A DNA stretch of 64,000 nt from an uncultured Clostridia bacterium (lineage in GTDB: Bacteria > Bacillota > Clostridia > Christensenellales > Borkfalkiaceae), in assembly GCA_947174415.1 (NCBI GenBank), contig CAMWIW010000003.1, positions 1-64,000 of the forward strand. Direction: 5' to 3'. Of the stretch, positions 164-44,390 are shown in pieces (position 1 is the first letter of the stretch; every line of letters starts with the position of its first letter). The notes beneath the pieces were generated by a model, which was not told where the DNA came from, ran no database searches, and was given only the letters and a program-made list of their open reading frames with translations. Both the position numbers and the translations under genes were made by a program.

Positions 164-2089
164 TTATCTGCCGCGGAAACCGCCACCGCCGTGTCCGCCG
201 CCTACGTGTCCGCCACCGCCGTGGAAACCGCCAAATCCGGACGACCCTGAGGACGAGGGGCGAGAAACCATATTGGAAGTCATATGGGACATCGATACGC
301 GCATAATCGAATTTAACACATAGAAATTCATAAGAGTTTGCGTCGTTGAGCAAGTTGCCCATTGAGGAGGCTGAACGGTGATATCCTTGAACTTGTTTTC
401 CCACTTGTCTGATACGCCCAAAATCTGAGCGTAAGGCAACACGTGATAGTAGAACTGCGGGTCGTCTTCAAGCATCTTTTCGAGTTGGTCTATTTCGGCA
501 AGTTCTATAAACTGCTTAAAGCCGACTATATCGTTGAGCTGCTCGGTGTATTTTTTCGTTCTGGTTATTATAATAACCGAAGATGCGACGGTCGCGCAGG
601 TTACCAAGCAAAGCAAAATTTTCGGAATAACTCCGATTATAAATGACGGCACGAGCAATGTATAAAACAGTGTCGTCAATGCGCTTATGCCTAACACGGC
701 GCAGATAAAACCTATCTTTGTGCCTTTCTTGGATTTGAATTTATTGTTTACAATACCCATAGAGAAAACGTAAACGAACATAAGGGGTACTAAGGCAATA
801 AAGGGTGCGATAACCAGATAGTGCAACGAAATTTGAGTAATGGCAAGAATTAACGGCGTAATGCCAAGCATTAATCCCGATACAAGAGCAATTATCCATG
901 AGAGAATAACGCTTTTTCTTTCGTAAAGTTCTTTCGTTTGTTCGTTGACCATTTTTGTAACTTTGTCAACGGTGCGGTAGAATTTGTATTTTAAAAGGCT
1001 CGGTTTTATAGCGTCCTGACCGTTAAATAACTCGGCAAACATTATCTGTTCGTAAGCGGGCGCGTCTTGCGGCAACGCCTTGACTATCCGAATAATGGAA
1101 GGGTCTTTCTGGTCGTCCAGATTTATCATTAAATACCCTTTATCCGCCCAGTAGAAAATCATTGAAGTTATATCTTCGGAATCGATTTTGCCGTCAATCA
1201 GCTTGCCCATTAAAAGGGGGTTCATTTTGTCGGGTGCTTCGAAGTTAACGACGGGAGTAATGGTGCGTTTATTAAAACAAAGGAATTTTAACGCAATTAC
1301 TAATAACAGAATTACAGCCACGACGATAATGAACCAATACGGGGTAATGTCGAAGTAAGTCGTCAGCGCGCCCTCTTCAAACGTAAGTTTAAATGTAACG
1401 CCTTCGTTGTATGCAAGCGGCTTGTTATTAAGCGTTAAAACCGTTCTTCCGTCCCCGTTTTGTGAAGTGGAAAAACTCTCTTCGGTTTCGCTTAAAACCT
1501 TTCCGACTACACATTTTCCGCTTAAATAACCGTCAGGAAGGATAAGCGTTACGGTTGCGCTTTTAATATCGCAATATGATTCTCTGTCCACGCCGATTGC
1601 GTTCAGATAGAGAATATTTGCGCCTTCTTGCGCTTTTGTAAGGCAGTAGTCGTAATTTATCAGATAAGTGTGGGTTTCGTTCGTCTTTTTAGTGTAATCG
1701 CCGATATCCACGGTTATATATTGGTTACTTGCATCGTCGTTTATTGAATCAACGTCAAAGTAAACCGTACGTTCAGTTCCGTTTACAAGTTCTGCAACCC
1801 TAACGTTTTTAACTATTTCGCCTGCATTTACCGGTATGCTTTTAACAAAACCCGTACTTTCTCTGCCTGTAAATGTTATTTCCAACTTTTCGGTAACACT
1901 GATTTCGCGGTTACTTTTAATATCGTACGTTACGTCGTAGTTTTCAAAGTAAAAAGAATATCTGTAAAGGTTTGGGTAAATTTCTGCGCTTGCGGTCTTT
2001 ACCGTGCCAAAGCCTACGGCAAGGCATAAAACCGTCAAAATAAGCATAACAAGCGCGATAAAATAAGGCTGTGATTTTAACTTTTTCAT
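164..2089 (-). CDS. DUF2207 family membrane protein with Gly/His-rich tail
   Basis: Predicted membrane protein of the DUF2207 (YciQ-like) family, 641 residues; biochemical role unknown. An N-terminal signal or anchor segment (residues about 10-34, ending TASAE) precedes an extracellular beta-rich region to about residue 245. A TM segment follows (WFIIVVAVILLLVIALKFL), then a cytoplasmic region with 'MIFYWADKGYLMINL', then a TM cluster around 400-510. The C-terminus is low complexity, SSSGSSGFGGFHGGGGH and onward, typical of this family. It is the last gene of a Nudix-lemA-DUF2207 unit and starts 57 bases after lemA. LemA and DUF2207 or TPM-type proteins are commonly neighbours, suggesting a shared envelope function; that is inference. 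Confidence 0.85.
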   Translation of the reverse strand: MKKLKSQPYFIALVMLILTVLCLAVGFGTVKTASAEIYPNLYRYSFYFENYDVTYDIKSNREISVTEKLEITFTGRESTGFVKSIPVNAGEIVKNVRVAELVNGTERTVYFDVDSINDDASNQYITVDIGDYTKKTNETHTYLINYDYCLTKAQEGANILYLNAIGVDRESYCDIKSATVTLILPDGYLSGKCVVGKVLSETEESFSTSQNGDGRTVLTLNNKPLAYNEGVTFKLTFEEGALTTYFDITPYWFIIVVAVILLLVIALKFLCFNKRTITPVVNFEAPDKMNPLLMGKLIDGKIDSEDITSMIFYWADKGYLMINLDDQKDPSIIRIVKALPQDAPAYEQIMFAELFNGQDAIKPSLLKYKFYRTVDKVTKMVNEQTKELYERKSVILSWIIALVSGLMLGITPLILAITQISLHYLVIAPFIALVPLMFVYVFSMGIVNNKFKSKKGTKIGFICAVLGISALTTLFYTLLVPSFIIGVIPKILLCLVTCATVASSVIIITRTKKYTEQLNDIVGFKQFIELAEIDQLEKMLEDDPQFYYHVLPYAQILGVSDKWENKFKDITVQPPQWATCSTTQTLMNFYVLNSIMRVSMSHMTSNMVSRPSSSGSSGFGGFHGGGGHVGGGHGGGGFRGR

Positions 2090-2146
2090 ATTATCCCTTT
2101 CACGAAGTAACGGCGCAACCGCGCCGTTACCGAAATAAAAATAATT

Positions 2147-2728
2147 TTAGAATTGTACTTTAACGTTCTGTCTTTCTTCGGGCGCGTCAACCGTGAAGTA
2201 ATCGCGCTGGCTCAATTTCATAGCTTTTGCAATTATGAGAGAGGGGAAGGATTTTATCTTTTTATTCAGTTCCCTTACGCATGCATTGTAATATTTTCTC
2301 GCTTGTACAAGCTCGTTTTCAATGTTTTTAAGTTGAGCTTGTAAATCAAGGAAGTTGGTGTTCGCTTTTAACTCGGGATAGTTTTCGGTAACCCTTCTGA
2401 ACCCTTGTAAAACGGTGGTCAATTCTCTGTCTGCCGCAATCTTTTCGCTTACGGTGGTTGCACTCATAGCCTGAGCGCGCGCTTGCGTTACCTTGGTAAA
2501 GGTTTCGCTTTCGTGTTTGGTATAGCCTTTAACCGTTTCGACAAGGTTGGGTATAAGGTCGTATCTCTTTTTCAGATACACGTCAATTGTGGAAAACGCA
2601 TCGTCTCCGTTTGCGCCTAAGCTTACGAATTTATTGTAAGTCGCAATCGCCCAAATAATGATAATCAGGACGAGGGCAACGGCAACGCCTATGCCAATCC
2701 AACCGCCGGTTTCAATAAGTAATTTCAT
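2147..2728 (-). CDS. lemA: LemA family protein
   Basis: LemA-family membrane protein, 193 residues. One N-terminal TM segment (about residues 9-28, IGVAVALVLIIIIWAIATYN) is followed by the family's helical domain, with the hallmark stretch 'YLKKRYDLIPNLVETVKGY' at about residues 52-70 and 'AYPEL'-like 'ENYPELKAN'. The usual topology is a short external N-terminus with a cytoplasmic helical bundle; function is not established. A good SD (GAGGT) sits 7 bases before the ATG. The gene starts 9 bases after the Nudix stop, so the two are cotranscribed. Confidence 0.9.
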   Translation of the reverse strand: MKLLIETGGWIGIGVAVALVLIIIIWAIATYNKFVSLGANGDDAFSTIDVYLKKRYDLIPNLVETVKGYTKHESETFTKVTQARAQAMSATTVSEKIAADRELTTVLQGFRRVTENYPELKANTNFLDLQAQLKNIENELVQARKYYNACVRELNKKIKSFPSLIIAKAMKLSQRDYFTVDAPEERQNVKVQF

Positions 2729-42281: not shown

Positions 42282-43103
42282 ATGGGAGATATTGGAGAAA
42301 GCTTTAAAAAATTTTTTAATTCGTTTGGGCAGAATTGGTTGGGCTACTTGTTGCAGTTCATCTTAATTGCCGTTGTTTTTTATTACGTATTTAAAATTTT
42401 GATAACGAATAAGGGTGGTAAGTTCATTGCCGTCGTTACGGGCGCTATCGTAATCAGCGGTTTAGCGTTCGCTTTGACGGATAATGACAAACTCTCGCAA
42501 GAGCTTCTTATAATCGTAATTTTAATGATAGCTCTTCTCGTGTTCACCATGTTCCATACGGAGATAAAGCGCTCCCTTCTCGACTCTAACGTTAAAAAGA
42601 GCAAGAAGCAGGACAACATAACTGTAACGGGCGTTGAGCTTATAATCGAAGAAACCGTTCGCGCAGTGCAGAATATGTCCAAAAAAGATATAGGCGCGCT
42701 TATAGTTCTTTCCAACGAAAACCTGCCTGAGGGAATAATCGAAAGCGGTACGGTAGTAAATGCCGATATTACCGCCCAAATGATTGAGGCCGTTTTCTAT
42801 CCCAAAGCTCCGCTGCACGACGGTGCTATGGTAATAGAAGGTACTAAAATTTATGCGGCGGGTTGCTTCCTGCCTCTTGCACAGAGCGAAAAACTTCCCA
42901 AAGATATGGGTAGCCGCCACCGCGCGGCATTGGGCGTAACGTCCGTTGCAAGCGTAACGGCAATAGTCGTTTCTGAAGAAACGGGCATAATCTCGATTGC
43001 AAAGAACGGCGTTATAAGAAAGAAATACGCCGACGCAGCGGACATTAAAAACGCACTTTCGGAATATTATTGGTCTGATTTGACGGCGGAGGGTAAATTA
43101 TGA
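42282..43103 (+). CDS. cdaA: Diadenylate cyclase CdaA
   Basis: Membrane-bound enzyme making c-di-AMP from two ATP; 273 residues from ATG 42282 (the ORF-track TTG is 11 codons earlier). Three TM helices in the first about 95 residues, then the DAC domain with both active-site motifs: 'LHDGAM' (DGA) and 'SRHRAALG' (RHR). In most Firmicutes cdaA is followed by cdaR and glmM; here it overlaps a 35-codon gene by ATGA. A TATAAT lies about 40 bases upstream without a good -35. Confidence 0.96.
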   Translation: MGDIGESFKKFFNSFGQNWLGYLLQFILIAVVFYYVFKILITNKGGKFIAVVTGAIVISGLAFALTDNDKLSQELLIIVILMIALLVFTMFHTEIKRSLLDSNVKKSKKQDNITVTGVELIIEETVRAVQNMSKKDIGALIVLSNENLPEGIIESGTVVNADITAQMIEAVFYPKAPLHDGAMVIEGTKIYAAGCFLPLAQSEKLPKDMGSRHRAALGVTSVASVTAIVVSEETGIISIAKNGVIRKKYADAADIKNALSEYYWSDLTAEGKL

Positions 43104-43207
43104 AAAAGTTTACAAATTTCTTAGTGGGGTTGTTCACGAAACACATTCCCATTAAAATTTTAGCTATAGTGCTTGCCGTGTTCGCCGTTTTGGTACTGAA
43201 CGTGTGA
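43100..43207 (+). CDS. CdaR/YbbR-like single-TM microprotein (remnant)
   Basis: 35-codon gene, too short for the ORF track. ATGA overlap with the cdaA stop gives translational coupling. A basic N-terminus (MKKFTNFLVGLFTKH) is followed by one TM helix (IPIKILAIVLAVFAVLVLNV), the pattern of the N-terminal anchor of CdaR/YbbR proteins, after which a TGA stop replaces the several YbbR domains. The next gene follows 7 bases later with GAGGGG as SD. The position exactly where cdaR belongs supports homology to the CdaR anchor. It is either a truncated cdaR or a functional membrane microprotein. Confidence 0.6.
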   Translation: MKKFTNFLVGLFTKHIPIKILAIVLAVFAVLVLNV

Positions 43208-43214
43208 GGGGCAT

Positions 43215-44390
43215 ATGAACACAGTAAGAATTCCCGATATTCTTTTGCCCGCTGACGGAACGGATATGAGCGCTTGGGCGGTTAACGCCTGCGACCAATA
43301 TACCTCCGACTTTTCTTATTGGCAAGAGGTTGAAAGAATTACGGCAGGTAAGCCCTCGGCGTATAACTTAATATTTCCAGAGATTTATCTCAACGACGAG
43401 CCCGAAAAGCGTATCGCGCGCATCAACGAAACCATGCGCGAGTACCTTTCGGGCAGCGTTTTTAAAAAGGTTTCGGGCGGGTTTATTCTCGTTGAACGCA
43501 CTACGCCTTCGGGTACGCGCACGGGGATTGTGCTTGCGGTAGATTTGGAAGATTATTCTTACGAGAACGGTGCAAATACTCCCGTTCGTTCGACTGAGGA
43601 TACAATTCGTGAAAGAATTCCGCCTCGCGTTAAAATAAGAGAAAACGCACCGTTAGAGCTTCCGCACGTTATGCTTTTGTATAACGATGAAAAAAATACG
43701 GTTATAAACGCCGTCAAGCGCGGAAAAGTTTTGTACGATTTTGATTTGATGTGTGGCGGCGGGCATATAAAAGGTACTTTCGTAGACAATTCAAAGAGCG
43801 TTAAAAACGCGTTTTATTCTCTTGCAACAGACAAAAACGGGCTTTTATTTGCTGTTGGCGACGGTAACCATTCTCTTGCCACTGCTAAAAAATGTTGGGA
43901 GAATATAAAAACCACACTTAGCGAAAAAGAAAGGGAAAATCATCCTGCACGGTACGCTCTCGTTGAAGCGGTTAACGTCTTCGACGACGCTTTGAAGTTC
44001 GAGCCTATCCACAGATTTATAAAAACGGATAAACCGTCCGAATTTTTAACCGAAATGCAAACCTCGGGCAGCGGAAAAGCGTATATTGTAGTGAAGGGGG
44101 TAAAATCGCAAATTAATTTTAACGCGAATACTCCCGCGGGAATAAGGGAGCTTGACGCTTATATTTCGGCTTTCATTGCCAAAAACGGCGGCGAGGTAGA
44201 CTATATTCACGGCGAAGAAGATTTATTAAAGTTAACAGAGGGCGGCGGAGTAGGCGTTTTGTTGCCTTCAATCGAAAAGAGCGAATTTTTCCGTTTGATT
44301 GAAAGCGGCGGCAACTTGCCCAGAAAGACTTTTTCTATGGGCGAGGGCTACGAAAAGCGTTACTACGTTGAGGCAAAGGCGATAATTTAA
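43215..44390 (+). CDS. DUF1015 family protein
   Basis: 391 residues, cytoplasmic. The family hallmark 'AVGDGNHSLATAK' is at about residues 213-225, and the start 'LLPADGTDMSAWAVNACDQ' is typical. Biochemical function is not established; DUF1015 genes are often near serine or amino-acid biosynthesis. Located between cdaA and aspartate kinase in the long plus-strand operon, with 9 bases to the next gene. Confidence 0.85.
   Translation: MNTVRIPDILLPADGTDMSAWAVNACDQYTSDFSYWQEVERITAGKPSAYNLIFPEIYLNDEPEKRIARINETMREYLSGSVFKKVSGGFILVERTTPSGTRTGIVLAVDLEDYSYENGANTPVRSTEDTIRERIPPRVKIRENAPLELPHVMLLYNDEKNTVINAVKRGKVLYDFDLMCGGGHIKGTFVDNSKSVKNAFYSLATDKNGLLFAVGDGNHSLATAKKCWENIKTTLSEKERENHPARYALVEAVNVFDDALKFEPIHRFIKTDKPSEFLTEMQTSGSGKAYIVVKGVKSQINFNANTPAGIRELDAYISAFIAKNGGEVDYIHGEEDLLKLTEGGGVGVLLPSIEKSEFFRLIESGGNLPRKTFSMGEGYEKRYYVEAKAII

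Follow-up and report, generated by a model that had tools for sequence, protein, structure and literature searches.

A predicted 35-residue membrane microprotein encoded behind cdaA is a descendant of CdaR that retains only the anchor

What becomes of CdaR, the protein reported to contact the transmembrane (TM) region of the diadenylate cyclase CdaA (PMC6368335, PMC8573169, PMC8316131), when the reading frame behind cdaA is only 35 codons long? The question arose from a 64,000-nt stretch of DNA (the window) on contig 3 of a 1.59-Mb genome assembly, whose nearest named relatives among the contigs compared are Candidatus Coproplasma and uncultured Clostridia. The original prediction held that the small ORF in this window is a CdaR reduced to its membrane anchor, retained rather than decayed, and possibly a regulator of CdaA. 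The mode of action of CdaR on CdaA is itself stated to be unknown (PMC8573169).

The features of the locus are listed in Table 1. The product of cdaA has a DAC domain with DGA and RHR motifs, preceded by three N-terminal TM helices. Because its score against TIGR00159 (160 bits) is below the cut-off of 189 bits, we consider it a divergent CdaA. Direct reading of the sequence confirmed the small ORF and its overlap with cdaA: the 3' end of cdaA reads ...GGTAAATTATGA, and its TGA (43101-43103) is overlapped by the ATG of the ORF (43100). The Shine-Dalgarno (SD) sequence is strong, with a 7-nt spacer between GGAGG and the start codon, and translation of the microprotein is probably coupled to that of cdaA through the ATGA overlap. 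The encoded peptide, MKKFTNFLVGLFTKHIPIKILAIVLAVFAVLVLNV (35 codons, stop codon at 43205-43207), is hereafter called micro-CdaR. It consists of a basic start and a single hydrophobic helix with nothing YbbR-like behind it, a composition that predicts an N-in orientation according to the positive-inside rule. Only 7 nt separate its stop codon from the start of the DUF1015 gene, so no decayed remainder of cdaR can hide behind it. A phage search of the region returned no match. The sole Rfam match above the gathering score in the window was a 6S RNA (RF00013; 61552-61734, + strand; 60.3 bits).

Table 1. Features of the cdaA/micro-CdaR locus, in window coordinates.
Feature	Position	Strand	Evidence
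cdaA, membrane-bound diadenylate cyclase, 3 TM helices and DAC domain, 273 aa	42282..43103	+	PF02457, E 4.5e-39; TIGR00159 (CdaA), E 5e-47; three hydrophobic segments; DGA and RHR motifs
SD sequence GGAGGG of the microprotein, within the 3' end of cdaA	43088..43093	+	Sequence; SD-like motif before the start in 52/53 distinct microprotein cases from relatives
ATGA overlap of cdaA stop and microprotein start	43100..43103	+	Sequence; -1 overlap shared by the full-length cdaR gene in family f31
micro-CdaR, 35 aa, CdaR cut down to cytoplasmic tip and TM anchor	43100..43207	+	Conservation, profile searches, selection, profile-profile comparison
TM helix of micro-CdaR (IKILAIVLAVFAVLVLNV)	43151..43204	+	Conserved face K19, A22, I23, A26, V30, L33
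DUF1015 gene, next in the cluster; follows cdaA/micro-CdaR in most relatives	43215..44390	+	

We examined the region downstream of cdaA in 77 loci of the genus, 30 and 47 of them from two genome collections that share some genomes. A homologous ORF of 32-39 aa directly followed cdaA at all 77 loci (74 recognised by pattern and three, with a GTG start or a +15 offset, by eye), yielding 53 distinct peptides. The ATGA overlap, with the start at -1, occurred in 61/74 loci; the remaining starts were at +2 to +21 or at -11. When 38 distinct peptides were aligned, no variation was seen at M1, K19, V30 or N34 and very little at F12, T13, L21 and A22. Over 28 distinct gapless 35-codon genes, pooled pN/pS was 0.34 in frame, whereas the alternative frames gave 1.0 and 2.2. 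For the five most similar pairs, dN/dS ranged from 0 to 0.15, and diversity by codon position (0.33/0.14/0.60) was concentrated at third positions. Judged by these substitution patterns, micro-CdaR is a gene under purifying selection and not debris, and the prediction that the ORF is retained was upheld. Nor did we encounter either of the outcomes that had been named as fatal to it, as no close relative carried a full-length cdaR with a frameshift and the peptide was strongly conserved.

To relate the microprotein to CdaR, we built a profile, A1, from the micropeptides of the genus only and searched it through 297 genomes of the order. Besides microproteins, A1 matched the N-termini of long frames (417-501 aa), many with YbbR in the same frame; these included full-length CdaRs in the YbbR-bearing genomes G293 (E 7e-7), G228, G369, G208 and G374. 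A class-level A1 match in G606 (L218) was checked and is not a CdaR. For a second profile, A3, we used microproteins from other families without YbbR and from no other source; among 378 genomes across the phylum it matched 82, nearly always in frames of ~300-460 aa, and cdaA lay beside the match in all of the 15 best loci, the ones examined. According to hhalign, the two microprotein sets matched the first ~48 residues of 16 full-length CdaRs with probabilities of 97.2% and 97.0%. Scans of the micro-CdaR peptide alone against Pfam and NCBIfam gave nothing useful besides a sub-threshold match to DUF2062 (13.4 bits), which we rejected as hydrophobic chance.

Because the peptide is short and hydrophobic helices look alike, we also considered an unrelated TM microprotein of new origin beside cdaA, similar to the CdaR anchor in hydrophobicity alone. 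The profile searches returned CdaR and not arbitrary TM segments, however, and a control for mere hydrophobicity, TM1 of CdaA (alignment A5), reached hhalign probabilities of only 0.6% and 0.3%. Moreover, the anchors of the microproteins and of CdaR align almost without gaps over N15-W/I16-x-x-K19-L-x-A/S22-L-x-x-A/G26-x-x-x-W/V30, and one helix face holds the conserved positions of the table (permutation p 0.03). Position 30, a tryptophan in typical CdaR anchors, is V in the genus of the window. The gene position is likewise that of cdaR, and full-length cdaR of family f31 has the same ATGA overlap, so the start of the micro-ORF is most simply the old cdaR start. Against this evidence, an origin de novo is extremely improbable, and the predicted likeness of the helix to the CdaR anchor was borne out as homology.

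Micro-CdaR thus shares with CdaR of Firmicutes the N-terminal TM anchor pattern (a single N-in helix with the motif NWxxKLxALxxAxxLW) and an overlapping gene directly downstream of cdaA. It differs in size, 35 aa versus about 300-500 aa, which leaves no room for the extracytoplasmic YbbR domains (PF07949). We searched for these domains elsewhere, as the original prediction had suggested. The Pfam YbbR model, which was positive in B. subtilis, L. lactis and other controls, had no match in the genome of the window and none in the family, of which 151 genomes (104 of good quality) were searched; within the order, 100/297 genomes were positive. By domain content, then, micro-CdaR is not a CdaR, but it is the descendant of one, in a genome where the search found no separate YbbR protein.

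To trace this reduction, the region behind cdaA was read in ~90 genomes of the order, whose families are given as codes (the window belongs to f1). The status of this region was clean by family. Full-length CdaR is found in f11, f17, f21, f23, f27 and f31, and in f4 from YbbR matches. The anchor only, of 35-75 aa and in some cases with a longer cytoplasmic tip, is found in f1, f9, f18, f19, f20, f29 and f32. Neither CdaR nor anchor follows cdaA in f3, f6, f8, f10, f14, f16, f24 and f30, in which DUF1015 or another gene comes directly after it; in this clade CdaA can therefore do without any CdaR. In an 87-row tree of CdaA, a single branch (100/100) separates the full-length group from all other rows; to explain the three labels, 3 changes suffice, versus 38 in shuffles. 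Among the rows labelled as lacking an anchor, G319 turned out to carry a fusion, and the other 28 lie on one branch (91/88). Because one branch sets all full-length CdaRs apart, a single loss of the YbbR domains is probable. Full-length CdaR occurs widely in the phylum, so the most economical history is that YbbR was lost once while the anchor stayed, and that the anchor was then lost once.

This history bears on the proposal that the ORF is a decaying cdaR remnant, which persists only because selection against short ORFs is weak. In its favour, micro-CdaR corresponds precisely to the N-terminal end of a larger gene, and a sister clade no longer has the anchor. This proposal is nevertheless contradicted by purifying selection on the amino acid sequence and by the persistence of the anchor in seven sampled families with no YbbR left, the conserved SD and overlap, and the transfer of the anchor onto CdaA in one genus (see below). 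We consider decay very improbable. The sister clade, which dropped the anchor and kept CdaA, does indicate that a CdaA need not have the anchor in every lineage.

Several variants were observed among the genomes surveyed. In another family of the class, a short CdaR of 235 aa lies behind cdaA (L217 of G783, 1448-2155, minus strand) and is possibly an intermediate reduction. At L234 (G460), repeats such as GYPKTGGYPKS make up a long N-terminal extension of the ORF downstream of cdaA, and the match to the anchor profile lies further along; the anchor here may have acquired a cytoplasmic tail rich in Tyr and Pro. L158 and L214 (G289, family f32) encode a 75-residue microprotein with a polar tail of ~25 residues on the outer side. 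Finally, no CdaA match was found in the 7/7 sampled genomes of family f28 (G225, G248, G268, G286, G303, G317 and G329; 0.8-1.2 Mb), in which c-di-AMP synthesis may be lost or performed by another cyclase.

In 14 genomes of genus g98, family f32 (L219-L231 and L233), the anchor is fused to the N-terminus of CdaA. CdaA of G319 begins MDRTPAQNVNTKDNAFVRMMKAIFVRDLRFKILAVVIGGLLWLVTVGLGVAD..., followed by a linker of ~40 residues before TM1 and then by the usual CdaA. Hydropathy analysis identified four segments in the fusion versus three in CdaA of the window. In tblastn searches with the fusion protein, the first ~50 residues alone matched separate micro-ORFs of the sister genera (E to 2e-8); the micro-ORF behind cdaA is present in these genera and absent in all 14 fusion genomes. 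The orientation appears to fit, because the CdaR anchor ends outside, where the N-terminus of a three-helix CdaA with its DAC domain inside should be. Gene fusions of this type are a classical sign of joint action by two proteins, in this case in cis, and the topology is as expected if the anchor binds the TM region of CdaA. The fusions thereby lend indirect support to such binding by micro-CdaR, and the predicted regulatory role gains independent support from them.

The fusions also bear on a translational relay, in which the short ORF would exist to couple translation of cdaA to that of the DUF1015 gene, as the tight spacing on both sides of it in the window might suggest. In g98, the peptide now stands at the N-terminal end of CdaA, and the gene immediately after cdaA is DUF1015. 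Further, the distance between micro-CdaR and DUF1015 varies widely among relatives, and conservation is in the amino acids, not just in the start and stop. We regard a relay as exceedingly unlikely.

Taken together, the data strongly suggest that micro-CdaR tunes CdaA, and we consider the following account as a whole to be likely. In an ancestor of several families of the order, CdaR would have lost all extracytoplasmic YbbR domains and kept the cytoplasmic tip and the TM helix, with translation still beginning at the former cdaR start codon and coupled to the 3' end of cdaA. In the membrane, the helix would lie N-in/C-out, and its packing surface with the TM helices of CdaA would be a small-xxx-small face (A22, A26) with K19 and residue 30 (W or V) on its flanks. 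It would set the assembly or activity of CdaA with no outer sensing. We propose micro-CdaR as a TM subunit of CdaA because selection kept precisely the part able to contact the CdaA TM region. Expression, membrane insertion, physical contact with CdaA and an effect on c-di-AMP synthesis, with its sign, are inferred.

The contact itself was explored computationally. Within the genus, covariation of the anchor with the CdaA TM region, given the DAC domain, was weak (partial r 0.27), and a mirror-tree comparison, weak and confounded by rate, is only suggestive. The top mutual-information pairs between the two proteins involved the gap-rich columns 69-70 and were rejected as an artefact. AlphaFold2 was applied to a pseudo-chain joining in-frame cdaA and microprotein with TAA read as a residue, a modelling device that claims no read-through; the pTM was 0.46, and structural comparison of the predicted pseudo-chain placed only the DAC domain. 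Two residues of CdaA, Tyr34 (TM1, 42381-42383) and Arg97 (after TM3, 42570-42572), are conserved in the anchor-bearing lineages and variable in the anchor-less clade. They are possible contact residues; the pattern is only a pointer, because the anchor-less clade represents a single evolutionary event.

Among the closest known systems is the CdaA-CdaR-GlmM complex of B. subtilis, L. monocytogenes and S. aureus: a CdaA with three TM helices and a DAC domain, a CdaR-type anchor and glmM are all present here. The present system differs in that glmM is on another contig than the window and there is no outer sensor domain. The DHH proteins of the genome appear, from their sequence and neighbours, to be a RecJ-like protein and a 319-aa NrnA-like protein. 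Solved CdaA structures, including 9g69 (DAC with GlmM), cover only the DAC domain; none spanned the CdaA-CdaR membrane contact, including those sought with an approximate B. subtilis CdaR query. In the literature searched, largely that outside subscription journals and without the Listeria CdaR studies, no account was found of a CdaR pared down to its anchor.

Small membrane proteins such as AcrZ, KdpF and MgtS regulate a membrane enzyme or transporter. Micro-CdaR resembles them in being one short TM helix beside a larger membrane protein. Unlike these proteins, whose source is unknown, it derives from a known regulator by loss of a large outer part.

As a rival reading, the helix could be a true reduced CdaR that sets no activity, its job being limited to stabilising or localising CdaA, assisting its insertion, or binding a third membrane protein. 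Micro-CdaR has no outer domain able to sense, and even in well-studied species it is not certain in which direction CdaR regulates: in S. aureus, a ybbR insertion mutant had higher c-di-AMP (PMC11520302), and no conclusive regulatory role was found for CdaR (PMC6368335). By contrast, co-expression of B. subtilis CdaR with CdaA in E. coli is cited in PMC8316131 as having raised c-di-AMP. The comparative evidence is common to both readings and includes nothing specific against this rival, which we nonetheless consider unlikely; we favour a helix that sets the assembly or activity of CdaA.

CdaR has been reported both as an activator and as a repressor, and this natural experiment indicates which part of it matters. 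Selection has kept only the membrane helix, once fused to the enzyme, which suggests that the helix alone does the essential job of CdaR. A broader reading is that the TM anchor is the core CdaR effector, by itself assembling or switching CdaA, and that YbbR is a detachable outer sensor that the clade discarded, the anchor becoming at times a fourth TM helix of the enzyme; we see about as much reason to accept this generalization as to doubt it. The microprotein may serve as a 35-residue tool for testing the action of CdaR, with candidate contact residues at A22, A26 and K19 of the helix and perhaps Y34 and R97 of CdaA. Throughout a large group of gut bacteria, all that would survive of this regulator of c-di-AMP synthesis is a membrane helix of ~35 residues, kept by selection beside the enzyme.
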